NCBI RefSeq assembly: GCF_029589435.1
Contig: NZ_JARRAG010000002.1
Coordinates: forward strand, 3,596,001 to 3,660,000
Length of the DNA stretch: 64,000 nucleotides
Direction of reading: 5' to 3'
From: Paludisphaera mucosa
GTDB taxonomy: Bacteria > Planctomycetota > Planctomycetia > Isosphaerales > Isosphaeraceae
Shown here: piece by piece, positions 9,155 to 13,270 of the stretch
Position numbering within the stretch: position 1 is the stretch's first letter
How the letters are laid out: each line of letters opens with the position of its first letter
Notes under the pieces: generated by a model
Database searches by the model: none
What the model was told of the DNA's origin: nothing
Seen by the model: the letters and a program-made list of their open reading frames with translations, nothing else
Translations under genes and position numbers: made by a program

Positions 9155-9526
9155 GGTCCTGATCCTCTCTCGACGCGGGGGCGTCCCACCGCCTATGGGA
9201 CGCGTCGCCGGGCCGGGGCAAAACCCCAATCTATCACATTCCCCCGCCACCCGCACCCGCCGCGCGGGAAATGGGGATCGGGCTCGATCCGTTTCGGAGC
9301 GCCCCTGCACGCGGCGCAGGCGCGGGGGCGCAGGCAGGGGCGTGCCGACGTCGCGCGACTTGACCCTTCCGTCGATGGTGGTCAAATGGTATCCTGATCC
9401 CCCACGCGTCGCGGCCGAGAGATGCGCCCCCGGGCCTCGGGGCGTGGATCGCGAACCGGAATCCGCGCGGCTCCGGCGCAATAATCGCCGGCGGCGATCG
9501 AAGGCATGTGAGGAGGTATCCTGATC
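9155..9526. other. Divergent intergenic region upstream of the ubiquitin-like operon
   Basis: These 372 bp separate the epimerase (minus) and Ubl (plus) start codons, so promoters for both should be here. An inverted repeat overlapping a possible -35 is annotated at 9360-9387. A strong ribosome-binding site, 'GAGGAGG', sits about 10 nt before the Ubl ATG. No gene was seen. Confidence 0.5.
9360..9387 (+). promoter_or_regulatory. Possible promoter/operator of the ubiquitin-like operon
   Basis: 'TTGACC' at 9360-9365 is followed after 16 bp by 'TCAAAT', a plausible though weak sigma70-type pair. 'TTGACC' is also mirrored by 'GGTCAA' at 9380-9385, giving a 6-bp inverted repeat with a 14-bp spacer that could be an operator. 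This is pattern reading only; the start site is unknown. Confidence 0.3.
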
Positions 9527-9820
9527 ATGTCATACGGCGGAACGAGCGATCCCACGGGCGTACAGGTGACGTTTTTGGACCAGACCGGTGCCAAATCCGT
9601 CAAGGCGGTGATCGCATTCACCGTCCCCGTCAGCCGGATCATCCCGAACATCATCACCAAGATGAATTTGCCGGCCACGAGCCCCGACGGCCAGCCCATG
9701 AGCTACGCGCTCGACCACAAGGAAGGGGGCCGGCGGCTGCTGGAGAACTGGACGCTCGTCGACGCCGGCATCCGCGACGGCGACCACCTGATCGTCTATC
9801 CCGAGGTCGTCGCCGGCTGA
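9527..9820 (+). CDS. YukD/EsaB-like ubiquitin-fold (Ubl) protein
   Basis: This is a 97-residue protein whose strand pattern fits a beta-grasp fold: 'VQVTFLDQTG', 'KAVIAFTVPVSRII', 'MSYALDHKEGG' and 'WTLVDAGIRDGDHLIVYPEV'. The last motif, 'D.GIRDGD.L.V', is characteristic of YukD/EsaB-type Ubls. The protein ends '...VVAG', a single C-terminal Gly preceded by Ala, so it may be ready for adenylation without cleavage. It is first in a tight operon with E2, E1 and JAB genes (66, 34 and -4 bp spacing), which makes it the likely modifier of that pathway. A strong 'AGGAGG' site about 10 nt upstream decides the start. No WXG100 or EssC gene is nearby, so a type VII secretion role is less likely. Confidence 0.8.
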   Translation: MSYGGTSDPTGVQVTFLDQTGAKSVKAVIAFTVPVSRIIPNIITKMNLPATSPDGQPMSYALDHKEGGRRLLENWTLVDAGIRDGDHLIVYPEVVAG

Positions 9821-9886
9821 TCCCGGGCCGACGAGGGACCGGGACCGACGCGAGCGGGCCAGACGAGACGAGACGGATCCAAGACC

Positions 9887-10648
9887 ATGCACGACTCGCC
9901 GCGATTGCGACGGCTCCGCAACGACCTGACGGCCCTCGAACGCCTGCGGGCCGAGAGCACCGTCTTCGACTTCCGGGCCCAGGGCGACCCCCCGCACCTC
10001 TACCGGATCACCTTCCGCGGGAAGGGCCTGCGCCGCGACGGCGGCAAGGTGAAATTCGCCGCCGCGCACGAGGTCGAGATCAAGCTGGGGTCGTCGTACC
10101 CGCGCTCGATCCCCGAGATCCGCTGGCTCTCGCCCATCCACCACCCCAACATCTCCGAGATCGGGATGGTCTGCCTGGGGGGCTACGGCACGCACTGGGT
10201 CCCCAGCGTTCAGCTCGACGAGCTTTGCACGATGCTGTGGGACATGGCCCGCTACCACAACTTCGACGTCCGCAGCCCGTACAACCGCGACGCCGCGCTC
10301 TGGGCCGGCAACCAGACCGCGATCCCCTTCCCCACCGACCCCCGGCCGATCCGCGACGTCCGCGAGGCGAAGGGCCGGATCGACTCGGCCCCCGCCCCGA
10401 CCGTCGCCCCCGGGCCCGGCTCGGGCGGGCCCGCTCGTGGCCTGCTGGGCGCGGCGGCGAGCGCGGGCGACGCGGCCGTCGGCCGGGTCCGGCGGTTCCT
10501 GGAAGGGCGGAACCGGCCCGACGAGGAGCGGCCGGCTTCGGCCGAGGCGGAGGGCGTAGTGATCCTGGAGACGACGGTGGACGAGGCCGTCGTCGGGGTC
10601 GAGCCGGAAGCCCCCCGGGCCCAGGACGACATCCTCTTCATCGAGTGA
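9887..10648 (+). CDS. E2-like ubiquitin-conjugating enzyme (UBC fold)
   Basis: This encodes 253 residues. Residues about 1-130 form a UBC-like domain: 'YRITFRGKG' and 'AHEVEIKLGSSYPRSIPEIRW' (central strands and the YP..P turn), then 'HPNISEIGMVCLGG'. The HPN motif (His86-Pro87-Asn88) and the candidate catalytic Cys96 have the same spacing as in eukaryotic E2s, and Trp104-Val-Pro follows as in the E2 'W.P' element. Residues about 150-253 are a Pro/Ala/Glu-rich tail of unknown function ending 'DDILFIE'. It would accept the Ubl from the downstream E1 as a thioester and transfer it to a target. Catalysis is inferred from motifs. It sits 66 bp after the Ubl gene and 34 bp before the E1 gene. Confidence 0.88.
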   Translation: MHDSPRLRRLRNDLTALERLRAESTVFDFRAQGDPPHLYRITFRGKGLRRDGGKVKFAAAHEVEIKLGSSYPRSIPEIRWLSPIHHPNISEIGMVCLGGYGTHWVPSVQLDELCTMLWDMARYHNFDVRSPYNRDAALWAGNQTAIPFPTDPRPIRDVREAKGRIDSAPAPTVAPGPGSGGPARGLLGAAASAGDAAVGRVRRFLEGRNRPDEERPASAEAEGVVILETTVDEAVVGVEPEAPRAQDDILFIE

Positions 10649-10682
10649 TCCGGCCCGGCCGGGACGAGGCGGAATCCAGCCC

Positions 10683-11882
10683 ATGACGACGCAGCCGCCC
10701 CTCGACGACGCCCCGCTGCGCATCGACGACGACGACCGATACGGCCGGCTCCGGCTGATCCCCTGGTGGCGGCAGGAGCGGCTCGCGGCGGCCAGGATCC
10801 TCGTCGTCGGCGCGGGGGCGCTGGGCAACGAGGTCCTCAAAAACCTGGCGCTCGTCGGCGTGGGGACGACCTACGTGATCGACCTCGACGAGGTCGAGCC
10901 GTCGAACCTGTCGCGCTCGGTCCTCTTCCGGTCCGAGGACGGCGGCCAGTCGAAGGCCCGCGTCGCCGCCCGCCGGGCCGGCGAGCTGAATCCCGAGATC
11001 GCCCTCGTGCCGATCCACGGCGACGTCATCACCGACGTCGGCCTGGGGCTCTTCGCGCACGTCGACCTGGTGATCGGCTGCCTCGACAACCGCGAGGCGC
11101 GGCTCTGGGTCAACCGCCAGTGCTGGAAGGTGGGCGTCCCCTGGATCGACGCCGGCATCCAGGAGATCCAGGGGGTCGTGAAGGTCTTCACCCCGCCGGT
11201 CTCGGCCTGCTACGAATGCACGATGACCGAGCGCGACTACCAGCTCCTGAACCTGCGCTACAGCTGCCCGCTGCTGAAGCGCGACGACATCCTGGCCGGC
11301 AAGGTGCCGACCGCCCCCACGATCGCGTCGATGATGGCGGCGCTCCAGGTGCAGGAGGCGCTCAAGCTGCTGCACGGGATGGCCGTCGAGGGGGGGTCGG
11401 CGATGGTCTTCAACGGCGTGGGGAACCAGTTCTACACGACCAAGCTCCCCTTCCGCGAGGACTGCCTGAGCCACGAGACCTACCCGAAGCCGATCGAGCT
11501 GCCGCTGGGCCGGTCGGCGACGATCCGCTCGCTGTTCGACGCGGCGGCCGCCGAGGGCCTGCGGCGGCCGCTGGCCCTCGGGCTCGACCGCGAGCTGGTG
11601 GAGGCCGTCGAGTGCCCCCGCTGCGGCGGCCGTCGCGAGGTGATGCGGCCGCGGACCGCCGTCGCCCAGTCCGAGGCCGAATGCCCGACCTGCCGCGAGC
11701 CCGGCCGGCCGATCCTCCTGAGCGCGATCGCCGAGGACTCGCCGCTGGCCGCGCGGACGCTGGCCGAGGTCGGCATCCCGCCCTACGACGTGGTCCGGGT
11801 CGACGGCGGCGGCTCCTCCCGGTTCTTCCTCCTGGCCGGCGACCGCGACGGCCTCGCCTCGGGCTGGGAGGGCGGCCGGTGA
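10683..11882 (+). CDS. E1-like ubiquitin-activating enzyme (ThiF/MoeB/UBA3-like) with zinc ribbon
   Basis: This encodes 399 residues. Residues 37-235 are a ThiF/E1 adenylation domain: the nucleotide loop 'GAGALG' (43-48), 'IDLDEVEPSNLSR' with Asp67 and Asp69, and 'VPTAPTIASMMAALQVQEALKLL', typical of E1s. The order 'CYEC' (Cys176, Cys179) then 'RYSCPLL' (Cys195) resembles the UBA3 arrangement, in which the first pair binds zinc and the later Cys forms the Ubl thioester. A second Cys set, 'CPRC' (311-314) and 'CPTC' (334-337), forms a C-terminal zinc ribbon or completes the UBA3-like zinc site. The expected reaction is ATP-dependent adenylation and thioester transfer of the Ubl at 9527. The stop TGA overlaps the JAB GTG start. 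Confidence 0.88.
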   Translation: MTTQPPLDDAPLRIDDDDRYGRLRLIPWWRQERLAAARILVVGAGALGNEVLKNLALVGVGTTYVIDLDEVEPSNLSRSVLFRSEDGGQSKARVAARRAGELNPEIALVPIHGDVITDVGLGLFAHVDLVIGCLDNREARLWVNRQCWKVGVPWIDAGIQEIQGVVKVFTPPVSACYECTMTERDYQLLNLRYSCPLLKRDDILAGKVPTAPTIASMMAALQVQEALKLLHGMAVEGGSAMVFNGVGNQFYTTKLPFREDCLSHETYPKPIELPLGRSATIRSLFDAAAAEGLRRPLALGLDRELVEAVECPRCGGRREVMRPRTAVAQSEAECPTCREPGRPILLSAIAEDSPLAARTLAEVGIPPYDVVRVDGGGSSRFFLLAGDRDGLASGWEGGR

Positions 11883-13270
11883 GCGGCGACGACATGGTCT
11901 TCGGCGAGGTCCGGTTCCGCGAGCCGGCGCGGCTGAAACGCCCCGACCGCGACGCCCGGTACGCCTGCGTCGCCTGCCAGACGCCGGGCCCCGACGACCT
12001 GCCCGTCTTTCTGGACCCGGCCCCGGCCGACGCGATCGAGCGGCACGCGCTGTCGGACACGTCGGTCGAGCTGGGGGGCGTCCTGCTGGGCAAGGAGTGC
12101 GTCGACCCGGCGTCGGGCCGCCCGTTCGTCTGGATCACCCGGTCGCTCGAGGCCAAGCACTACGCCAACACCCAGGCGAGCTTCACCTACACCCACGACT
12201 CCTGGGAGGAGATCACCCGCGAGCGGGACCGCCTCCACCCCGACCTGGACGTCGTCGGCTGGTACCACACCCACCCGAACTTCGGGATCTTCCTGTCCCA
12301 TCACGACCTGTTCATCCACCAGAACTTCTTCTCCCAGCCCCTGCAGACGGCCTACGTCGTCGACCCGATCCAGGGGACGCGCGGGTTCTTCCAGTGGGCG
12401 GACGGCCGGATGGTGCAGGTCGGCGGCTTCCACCTCTGCGCCGAGCGCTCGGAGCGGGTGGCGCTGTCGCGGCTGGCCGACCAGATGGAGAACCTCCCCG
12501 GTTCGTCCCAGGGCGGCTCGGGCCTTTCTCCTCGCCTCGAGGCGGAGCTGATCAAGATGCTGAGTCGACCCGCCCCCCCCGTCGGCGGCCCCGGCGACCG
12601 CCTCGCGCTCGCCGTCCTGCTCGGTTTCCTGGGCTCGCTGCTGTTTTTGCTGGTCGCCACCGCCGGCTTCTGGTTGAGCCGGGTCGACGGCCGGCTCGGC
12701 GAGCAGGGCGACGCGCTGGCCGCCCTGAAGCTCGAGGTCGACGAGTCGGCGTCGGGCCGGAAGGCGGCCGTGGACCTGCTCCTGGAGAAGGTCGGCGGAG
12801 AGACTCCCGAGCTGTTCGTCGAACGCTACGAGAAGCTCGCCCGGGCCCGCGACGACGCCCGCAAGCAGCTCGTCGCCCAGCAGTCGGTCAACGAGGCGCT
12901 CGGCCTCCGCGTGAAGGACCTGACCTCGGCCGCCGGCTCGCTCGGCGCCGAGCTCGACGCCGCCCGGAAGACCCTCGCGGAATACGAGGCCGACGCCAAG
13001 GCGGCCCCCAAGCTCCGCGAGCGGATCGCCGTGCTCGAGAGCGAGGCCGCCGAGAACCTCCGCGAGATCAAGGATCAGCGCGCGATCCTGGCTACGAAGG
13101 AGGGCGAGAACGCGGCCGCCACCTACAACTCGCTGAAGGTCTACACGCTGACGACCTACGCGGCCGGGCTGGCCGCCCTGCTGATGGGCCTCACGGCGGT
13201 CTTCTTCTACTACCGCTCGCTCGCCCCGCCGCCCGAGACCTCTCACGCCGCCTCGCGACGCGCCCCCTGA
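11879..13270 (+). CDS. Membrane-anchored JAB/JAMM (MPN) metalloprotease with coiled coil
   Basis: This encodes 463 residues from GTG at 11879, which overlaps the E1 stop by 4 nt (GTGA) with 'GGGAG' upstream; an ATG at 11894 is the alternative. Residues about 50-190 are a JAB domain with a full JAMM motif: Glu64 in 'ELGGVLLG', then His130-x-His132-x7-Ser140-x2-Asp143. A Cys pair ('CVAC') precedes it. A first membrane helix (about 242-266) is followed by about 150 residues of charged heptad-like coiled coil, then a second helix ('YTLTTYAAGLAALL') and a short basic tail. The protease would remove or recycle the Ubl at the inner face of the membrane. The JAB-TM-coiled coil-TM layout is unusual. 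Confidence 0.87.
   Translation: MSGDDMVFGEVRFREPARLKRPDRDARYACVACQTPGPDDLPVFLDPAPADAIERHALSDTSVELGGVLLGKECVDPASGRPFVWITRSLEAKHYANTQASFTYTHDSWEEITRERDRLHPDLDVVGWYHTHPNFGIFLSHHDLFIHQNFFSQPLQTAYVVDPIQGTRGFFQWADGRMVQVGGFHLCAERSERVALSRLADQMENLPGSSQGGSGLSPRLEAELIKMLSRPAPPVGGPGDRLALAVLLGFLGSLLFLLVATAGFWLSRVDGRLGEQGDALAALKLEVDESASGRKAAVDLLLEKVGGETPELFVERYEKLARARDDARKQLVAQQSVNEALGLRVKDLTSAAGSLGAELDAARKTLAEYEADAKAAPKLRERIAVLESEAAENLREIKDQRAILATKEGENAAATYNSLKVYTLTTYAAGLAALLMGLTAVFFYYRSLAPPPETSHAASRRAP

Follow-up and report, generated by a model that had tools for sequence, protein, structure and literature searches.

A probable chromosomal ubiquitin-like conjugation cycle with a distant RING candidate in Paludisphaera mucosa

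Operons related to the ubiquitin operon of Caldiarchaeum are carried by Actinobacteria, Planctomycetes, and Acidobacteria, according to the available portion of a 2014 review that cites Burroughs 2011 (PMC4197634). The operon analyzed here encodes a ubiquitin-like modifier (Ubl), an E2, an E1, and a JAMM/JAB protease, in that order and all on the forward strand, at positions 9527-13270 of a 64,000-nucleotide stretch of the Paludisphaera mucosa genome (GCF_029589435.1, 8,211,357 bases in 9 contigs; NZ_JARRAG010000002.1 positions 3,596,001-3,660,000), hereafter the window. Its gene kinds and its phylum are shared with the predicted bacterial Ubl-E1-E2-RING-JAB operons, which include planctomycete ones; in contrast to those, the RING gene of the genus Paludisphaera is unlinked. 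Burroughs, Iyer, and Aravind reportedly proposed in 2011 that YukD-like Ubls may be conjugated, that some E1s carry a UFD, and that RINGs serve as E3s. Since related planctomycete operons have been in print since 2011, the kind is known in outline and the window operon is a further member of it; the original prediction, made from the sequence by itself, described the combination of pieces as one it did not recognize, which is too strong for the kind as far as the review excerpt goes (PMC4197634). What is unusual is that the ends of the pathway, the RING and the JAMM protease, are predicted to be membrane tethered, together with the constraint on the modifier.

The cascade of Caldiarchaeum subterraneum has been reconstituted in vitro, with the pro-ubiquitin tail cut by an Rpn11/JAMM protease, as the accessible part of that paper describes (PMC5654768). 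Shared by the archaeal operon and the window system with its homologues are a tailed Ubl precursor, an E1, an E2, a RING E3, and a JAMM protease; from the same text, its mature Ubl ends in GG and its RING lies in the operon, whereas the window Ubl ends in AG and its RING candidate is encoded off-site. Predicted transmembrane (TM) segments are carried by the RING and JAMM proteins of the window system, the archaeal counterparts falling outside this comparison. Bil operons also consist of four genes for a Ubl, an E2, a JAB, and an E1; in the portion of the source available, two Ubl domains are described for BilA, a pair of adenylation domains, one inactive and one active, for BilD, and a CEHH motif for BilB (PMC11354881), whereas the window has one YukD domain (97 aa), one ThiF stretch, and an HPN E2. 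We rejected assignment to Bil because there is neither a double-Ubl BilA nor an E1 with two adenylation domains. Bub operons share a Ubl, an E1, an E2, and a protease with the window, and many carry DNA-damage regulators, according to the excerpts available (PMC13373217, PMC12687455); in contrast, none of 10 neighboring window open reading frames (ORFs) matched PADLOC, a scan of hand-picked ORFs at 1.6-22 kb, some perhaps not real genes, that included no search aimed at CapK/CapS. Among the literature matches listed, as far as their text was available, bacterial Ubl cascades with experiments are mainly tied to phage defense, and none of these matches, which cover few subscription papers, reports experimental work on a planctomycete, RING-linked cascade.

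The operon and its four products

Checking the ORFs returned the four genes, their coordinates, gaps of 66 bp between Ubl and E2 and 34 bp between E2 and E1, and a -4 bp (GTGA) overlap between E1 and JAB, exactly as originally predicted. The predicted identities held as well, with Pfam matches to YukD for the Ubl (57.5 bits, E = 2.4e-15), UQ_con for the E2 (42.6 bits, E = 5.9e-11), ThiF for the E1 in one stretch (181.4 bits, E = 2e-53), and JAB for the protease (37.7 bits, E = 2.1e-9); all four exceed the curated cut-offs and are therefore not chance matches. Profile searches of the whole P. mucosa genome gave one YukD match and one UQ_con match, both inside this operon. A neighborhood search with six E1 peptide patterns fetched 41 loci, mostly with all four parts, a sample that favors E1s keeping those stretches; 40 of the 41 are labeled as Planctomycetes and the remaining one (L033) only as "bacterium." By tblastn, matches to Ubl, E2, and JAB were found in 38 loci each; both the Ubl and the E2 match are missing from L008 (which starts just before E1), L027, and L028, and the JAB match from L005 (where the contig ends), L038, and L043.

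The Ubl (97 aa; 9527..9820, +; Pfam YukD) ends in YPEVVAG directly before the stop codon, and is thus of the ready-made kind, with no tail to cut. Its C-terminal V-A-G (9809..9817, +), the putative site of adenylation and conjugation, is found in all 38 Ubl-bearing homologous loci (25 YPEVVAG, 10 YPEIVAG, and 3 with Met), each of which thus has an exposed or processable C-terminal Gly: an immediate stop follows VAG in 10 loci and 1 to 21 variable residues follow it in 28, beginning with Arg in 10 of those 28. VAG plus a variable tail resembles a precursor-processing signature; ubiquitin, SUMO, and NEDD8 precursors show comparable C-terminal tails. In an alignment of 39 sequences including that of the window, 44 of the 97 positions are invariant and mean pairwise identity is 81%; Lys23 and Lys65 occur in 39/39 sequences and Lys45 in 38/39. 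By these comparisons the Ubl is better conserved than the other three proteins and under the strongest constraint, with a median nonsynonymous divergence (dN) from the window gene of 0.10, versus 0.27 for E1, 0.38 for E2, and 0.56 for JAB. Third-position differences are similar across the four genes (0.45-0.54), and the Ubl protein of L003 is identical to that of the window despite a synonymous divergence (dS) of 0.37. A Shine-Dalgarno sequence, AGGAGG, precedes the gene (9511..9516, +), and its recurrence within 40 bp upstream in 22/38 homologous loci suggests strong translation of the Ubl. In many Isosphaeraceae loci, the Ubl gene follows a leader like GAGGAGGTATCCTGA (window 9500-9530).

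The E1 (399 aa; 10683..11882, +) has a single adenylation domain followed by a C-terminal domain, as seen from the ThiF match and an AlphaFold2 model (predicted local distance difference test [pLDDT] 83.4, predicted template modeling score 0.84). As originally predicted, it combines a nucleotide loop with a Cys beyond the adenylation core: GAGALGNE and Cys195, the candidate catalytic residue in RYSCP (11265..11267, +), are invariant in a 42-sequence alignment (mean identity 64%), and Cys195 lies outside all six search patterns. Cys176, Cys179, Cys261, and His264 are invariant as well and probably form a zinc site. The C-terminal domain (11484..11867, +), apparently UFD-like from fold alignment, has a CxxC...CxxC knuckle; Cys 311, 314, 334, and 337 are nearly invariant. 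Model residues 24-387 align to the SUMO E1 9dqb_B over 299 residues (root mean square deviation [rmsd] 4.0), an alignment that would cover the UFD. The label UBA3-like, given originally, is reasonable on fold grounds (UBA3, Z 29.4), although there it is tied with MoeB (Z 29.7), and by sequence UBA7, SAE2, and UBA1 rank above UBA3; the best NCBIfam matches, ThiF and MoeB, are both below cut-off. Because there is no second adenylation domain, the E1 would act as a homodimer. One weak internal TM call was taken as the core of the fold.

The E2 (253 aa; 9887..10648, +; UQ_con) belongs to the UBC family, and its best PDB sequence matches are Ubc13/UBE2N. In a 39-sequence alignment (mean identity 55%), Pro87 and Asn88 of the HPN (residues 86-88) are invariant and His86 is nearly so; Cys96 (10172..10174, +), invariant too, corresponds in alignment to the Cys in the HPN...C motif of Ubc13 and is the likely catalytic residue, which bears out the predicted HPN E2. 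Trp104, Pro106, and Ser107 are invariant in the same alignment, in a loop that we take to correspond to the RING-binding loop of eukaryotic E2s. The C-terminal tail is variable: a hypervariable linker leads to [DE]-[IV]-x-[FV]-[IL]-[DEG] or close to it, a pattern that as a regular expression matches 38/39 E2 C-termini (DDILFIE in the window, 10625..10645, +), the exception being L025, which ends in GEILFILD. The motif resembles SUMO-interacting motifs; a search of the P. mucosa genome with a strict codon pattern found the E2 itself only, so no partner sharing the tail motif can be named.

The JAMM/JAB protease (463 aa, GTG start; 11879..13270, +; Pfam JAB) has a predicted TM-coil-TM arrangement. 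Across 39 aligned sequences (mean identity 41%), Glu64 (12068..12070, +) and the His130, His132, Ser140, and Asp143 of the HxH...SxxD motif (12266..12307, +) are invariant, and hydropathy predicts two TM segments, at residues 242-260 (12602..12658, +) and 424-442 (13148..13204, +); both the JAMM motif and the double-membrane topology of the original prediction are thus upheld at the level of sequence. Both TM segments were called in the window and in 32/38 loci, with one call only in L020 (cut at the contig end) and L024; the L030 match is a soluble second JAB. No TM segments were found in the Ubl or E2 by hydropathy.

A RING ligase candidate outside the operon

The original prediction saw a complete pathway in one operon, perhaps independent of an E3, and this did not hold up. 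Clustering of all ORFs from 42 regions (the 41 loci and the window) revealed a membrane-anchored Prok-RING_1 family, median length 285 aa, that adjoins the operon in 25/42 regions. There is no RING gene beside the window operon; in the P. mucosa genome the single Prok-RING_1 match is a 292-aa ORF at C2:2174739-2175617 (L079:5740-6618), about 1.43 Mb away. This ORF scores 252 bits against a profile made from the linked copies without it, and 41.7 bits against Prok-RING_1 (PF14446), for which the curated cut-off is 29.1; four of four linked copies scanned for Prok-RING_1 also pass. The eight-ligand pattern CxxC...CxxC...HxxC...C...C is present in 33/33 RING copies of the 25 loci, and the eight ligands are invariant in 22 aligned copies. 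Hydropathy calls a TM segment near the start of all 31 copies tested and of the P. mucosa copy.

A model of the L007 RING protein (pLDDT 86.7) has an N-terminal helix, a middle domain, and a C-terminal zinc domain. The domain in the N-terminal part resembles TtfA from mycobacteria (160 residues aligned, Z 14.4, rmsd 3.8) as well as chains from translocon structures (7tm3_4, Z 13.3, rmsd 6.7; 6w6l_7, Z 10.3, rmsd 4.0), which we take to be CCDC47 in ribosome-bound translocon structures.

Ubl and RING also occur together. In 59 relatives, the RING family matches 33 and the Ubl 31; both are found in 29 genomes, the Ubl only in 2, the RING only in 4, and neither in 24 (p = 2.5e-10), with corresponding counts of 29, 2, 2, and 4 in the 37 genomes of the family (p = 0.003), both p values being too small because the genomes are related. 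All six genomes of the genus in this set have the Ubl and the RING; the two are separated by about 0.8 Mb in G392 and by about 0.2 Mb in G393, and they are on separate contigs in G394-G396. Within the sampled family genomes the Ubl is present in 31/37; in a sample of 392 genomes from the phylum, in which 12 candidates per genome were scored and the counts are therefore lower bounds, the Ubl profile matched in at least 31 genomes, at least 8 of these at E <= 2.5e-37.

The proposed cycle and competing explanations

From the observed families, modeled folds of the E1 and of the RING candidate, conserved residues, linkage and co-occurrence, Ubl tail signature, and constraint, we consider it probable that these genes form a chromosomal Ubl-E1-E2-RING conjugation and JAMM deconjugation cycle in which the RING and the protease are tethered to the membrane. 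In such a cycle, the E1 would adenylate the C-terminal Gly of the YukD-type Ubl and load the Ubl onto Cys195, from which it would be handed to Cys96 of the E2; the membrane-anchored RING encoded about 1.43 Mb away would be the E3 attaching it to target proteins, and the two-TM JAMM protease would take it off again and, in species whose Ubl has a tail, would also expose the terminal Gly. Since RING and JAMM would both be membrane tethered, the targets would be expected at the cytoplasmic membrane or close to it, and the role would, for the same reason, be housekeeping or envelope upkeep and not phage defense.

Several points weigh against this proposal, among them the bias of the E1 patterns toward conserved E1s and the inflated significance of the co-occurrence. 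The Ubl ends in AG rather than GG, and Bacillus subtilis YukD was reported not to be conjugated, according to the part of that study available (PMC1779556). The region around Cys195 (E1 residues 189-198) has a pLDDT below 50, and this residue was therefore assigned by motif and spacing. L027 and L028 have an E1 and a JAB without a Ubl or E2 match, L038 and L043 have no JAB match, and no TM segment was called in the JAB proteins of L040-L042. The zinc domain of the L007 RING gives tied matches to the BIRC7 RING (Z 5.3), the cIAP2 RING (Z 5.1), and the ZZ domain of p62 (Z 4.9), and C1 and PHD also match the RING candidate weakly; a Ubl without a RING match occurs in G407 and G412, and a RING without a Ubl match in G121, G137, G399, and G402. 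A membrane role is deduced entirely from predicted TM segments, and it is we who infer the chemistry (thioester, conjugation, and cleavage), the pairing with the E3, the topology, the targets, and the physiological role.

The alternative that survives best is anti-phage defense of the Bil, Bub, or CBASS-conjugation sort, in which phage or host immune proteins would become tagged with the Ubl upon infection. Characterized bacterial Ubl cascades appear to serve mainly phage defense, according to the accessible text of a review (PMC12687455), and the E1 matches the PADLOC E1-E2 and BilD profiles over its adenylation domain, with the JAB matching weakly; the Ubl and E2, in contrast, match no PADLOC family, and neither do the 10 neighboring ORFs described above. 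A stand-alone Ubl 74% identical to that of the window, ending in VAG plus VVI, lies on a 77.7-kb IMG/VR contig (L066:4986-5264) and is a possible viral mimic. PHROGs matched 2/9 ORFs scanned within the 10 kb examined of that contig, one HNH and one weakly ParB-like, which does not settle whether the contig is from a virus; no E1 match was found in the whole record, in a search run without a positive control, and the window Ubl had no match among 50,697 phage records. Against defense stand the near-unchanging Ubl and its presence in 31 of 37 family genomes, as well as the flanking gene families common to the window, L003, and L004, and Bub operons themselves are without demonstrated phage protection in the portion of the source available (PMC13373217). 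A defense role is therefore possible but unlikely, and we do not favor it.

A role for the Ubl as an accessory to type VII secretion, like that of YukD/EsaB in Bacillota, with the E1, E2, and JAB present for another reason, is very improbable. YukD was tied to the ESAT-6 export system by Iyer 2006 (PMC1779556), and type VII YukD shares the Pfam YukD domain, to which the window Ubl matches together with an EccD match below cut-off; as far as the excerpts of these sources go, it adjoins secretion genes (PMC3701619, PMC1779556), whereas the window Ubl adjoins E1, E2, and JAB instead. P. mucosa does have a cluster of WXG100, a 248-aa ORF, and FtsK/SpoIIIE (C2:833-838.6 kb; L092:973-6624), but it is about 2.8 Mb from the operon that holds the only YukD match of the genome. 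WXG100 occurs in 30/31 Ubl-positive and 20/28 Ubl-negative relatives (Fisher p = 0.0098), a weak association that relatedness may explain; its presence in those 20 Ubl-negative genomes makes WXG100 independent of this Ubl. This reading would also leave unexplained the conserved VAG with its variable tail and why the Ubl gene is linked to those for E1, E2, and JAB. That the Ubl is instead a ThiS/MoaD-type sulfur carrier, with a ThiF/MoeB-like enzyme as its activator, as the below-cut-off NCBIfam matches of the E1 and its top, tied MoeB fold match might suggest, is scarcely credible, as sulfur transfer needs no UBC-type E2 with HPN and Cys, UFD-like E1 C terminus, or linked RINGs, and the Ubl matches YukD, not ThiS or MoaD.

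Variant loci, neighbors, and implications

In nine loci (L029, L031-L037, and L039), a second E2-like gene without a Cys after the HPN follows JAB and adjoins one to three RING genes, an arrangement that recalls the Ubc13-Mms2 pair; several loci have two or three RING genes. The P. mucosa genome gave no second E2 or extra RING, with one UQ_con match and one Prok-RING_1 match only. A soluble second JAB of about 170-195 aa is found between E2 and E1 in L029, L030, L031, L034, and L035; of these, the four tested at full length (L029, L031, L034, and L035) gave no TM call. Two diverged types of planctomycete Ubl operon (L080-L085) differ in gene order. One is Ubl-E1-JAB, with RING and E2 farther along in L080-L082 and the contig of L085 breaking off shortly past JAB; the other is E1-Ubl-E2-JAB (L083 and L084). 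When we searched for a mobile origin, in one search at E <= 1e-30, the E2 and E1 matched one cyanobacterial plasmid only. A Crinalium (cyanobacterial) plasmid, L078:7233-10716, carries an E1, two small ORFs, an E2, and a JAB, with a type IV secretion transfer gene after them; the two small ORFs, one ending in GGY, are suspected Ubls without a Ubl-profile match.

Pfam analysis of 10 ORFs flanking the window operon placed six in ordinary families (abhydrolase, pyrophosphatase, epimerase, glycosyltransferase, CarboxypepD_reg, and sigma-70) and left four without a match. Elsewhere, a CAAX-type M48 protease family (one copy Pfam-tested) is near the operon in 18 loci, mostly downstream of JAB and upstream in L014, and a transporter family that we presume to be MmpL-like is near it in 10; in L007 and L009, for example, these neighbors lie at about 8.6-13 kb. 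Ten loci have a member of a transglutaminase-like family (one copy Pfam-tested) upstream of the Ubl, for example, at about 1.8-4.1 kb in L031 and L037. With regard to possible degradation by a 20S proteasome, PF00227 has two matches in the P. mucosa genome, which may be HslV or 20S subunits, and this family also matches in E. coli and B. subtilis.

Beyond the conjugation cycle itself, we tentatively raise the possibility of a housekeeping ubiquitin system in planctomycetes that is tethered to the membrane, tags membrane or envelope proteins, and would be a bacterial counterpart of ubiquitination at the endoplasmic reticulum membrane. Its parts would be the near-unchanging Ubl, an E2 whose tail binds the Ubl (joined in some lineages by a Cys-less E2 relative), RING ligases with an N-terminal domain like TtfA and the translocon chains, and the two-TM JAMM protease. 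The constraint on the Ubl is comparable to that on ubiquitin, which suggests a broad and lasting role. A gene-by-gene list is now available for a planctomycete RING-linked cascade, and it includes an orphan candidate for the ligase, which local reading of the operon overlooked. Such systems were predicted earlier; the membrane-anchored form described here is open to direct testing, and in cultured Isosphaeraceae it can now be asked whether RING-dependent bacterial conjugation operates outside defense and whether the membrane is its site of action.

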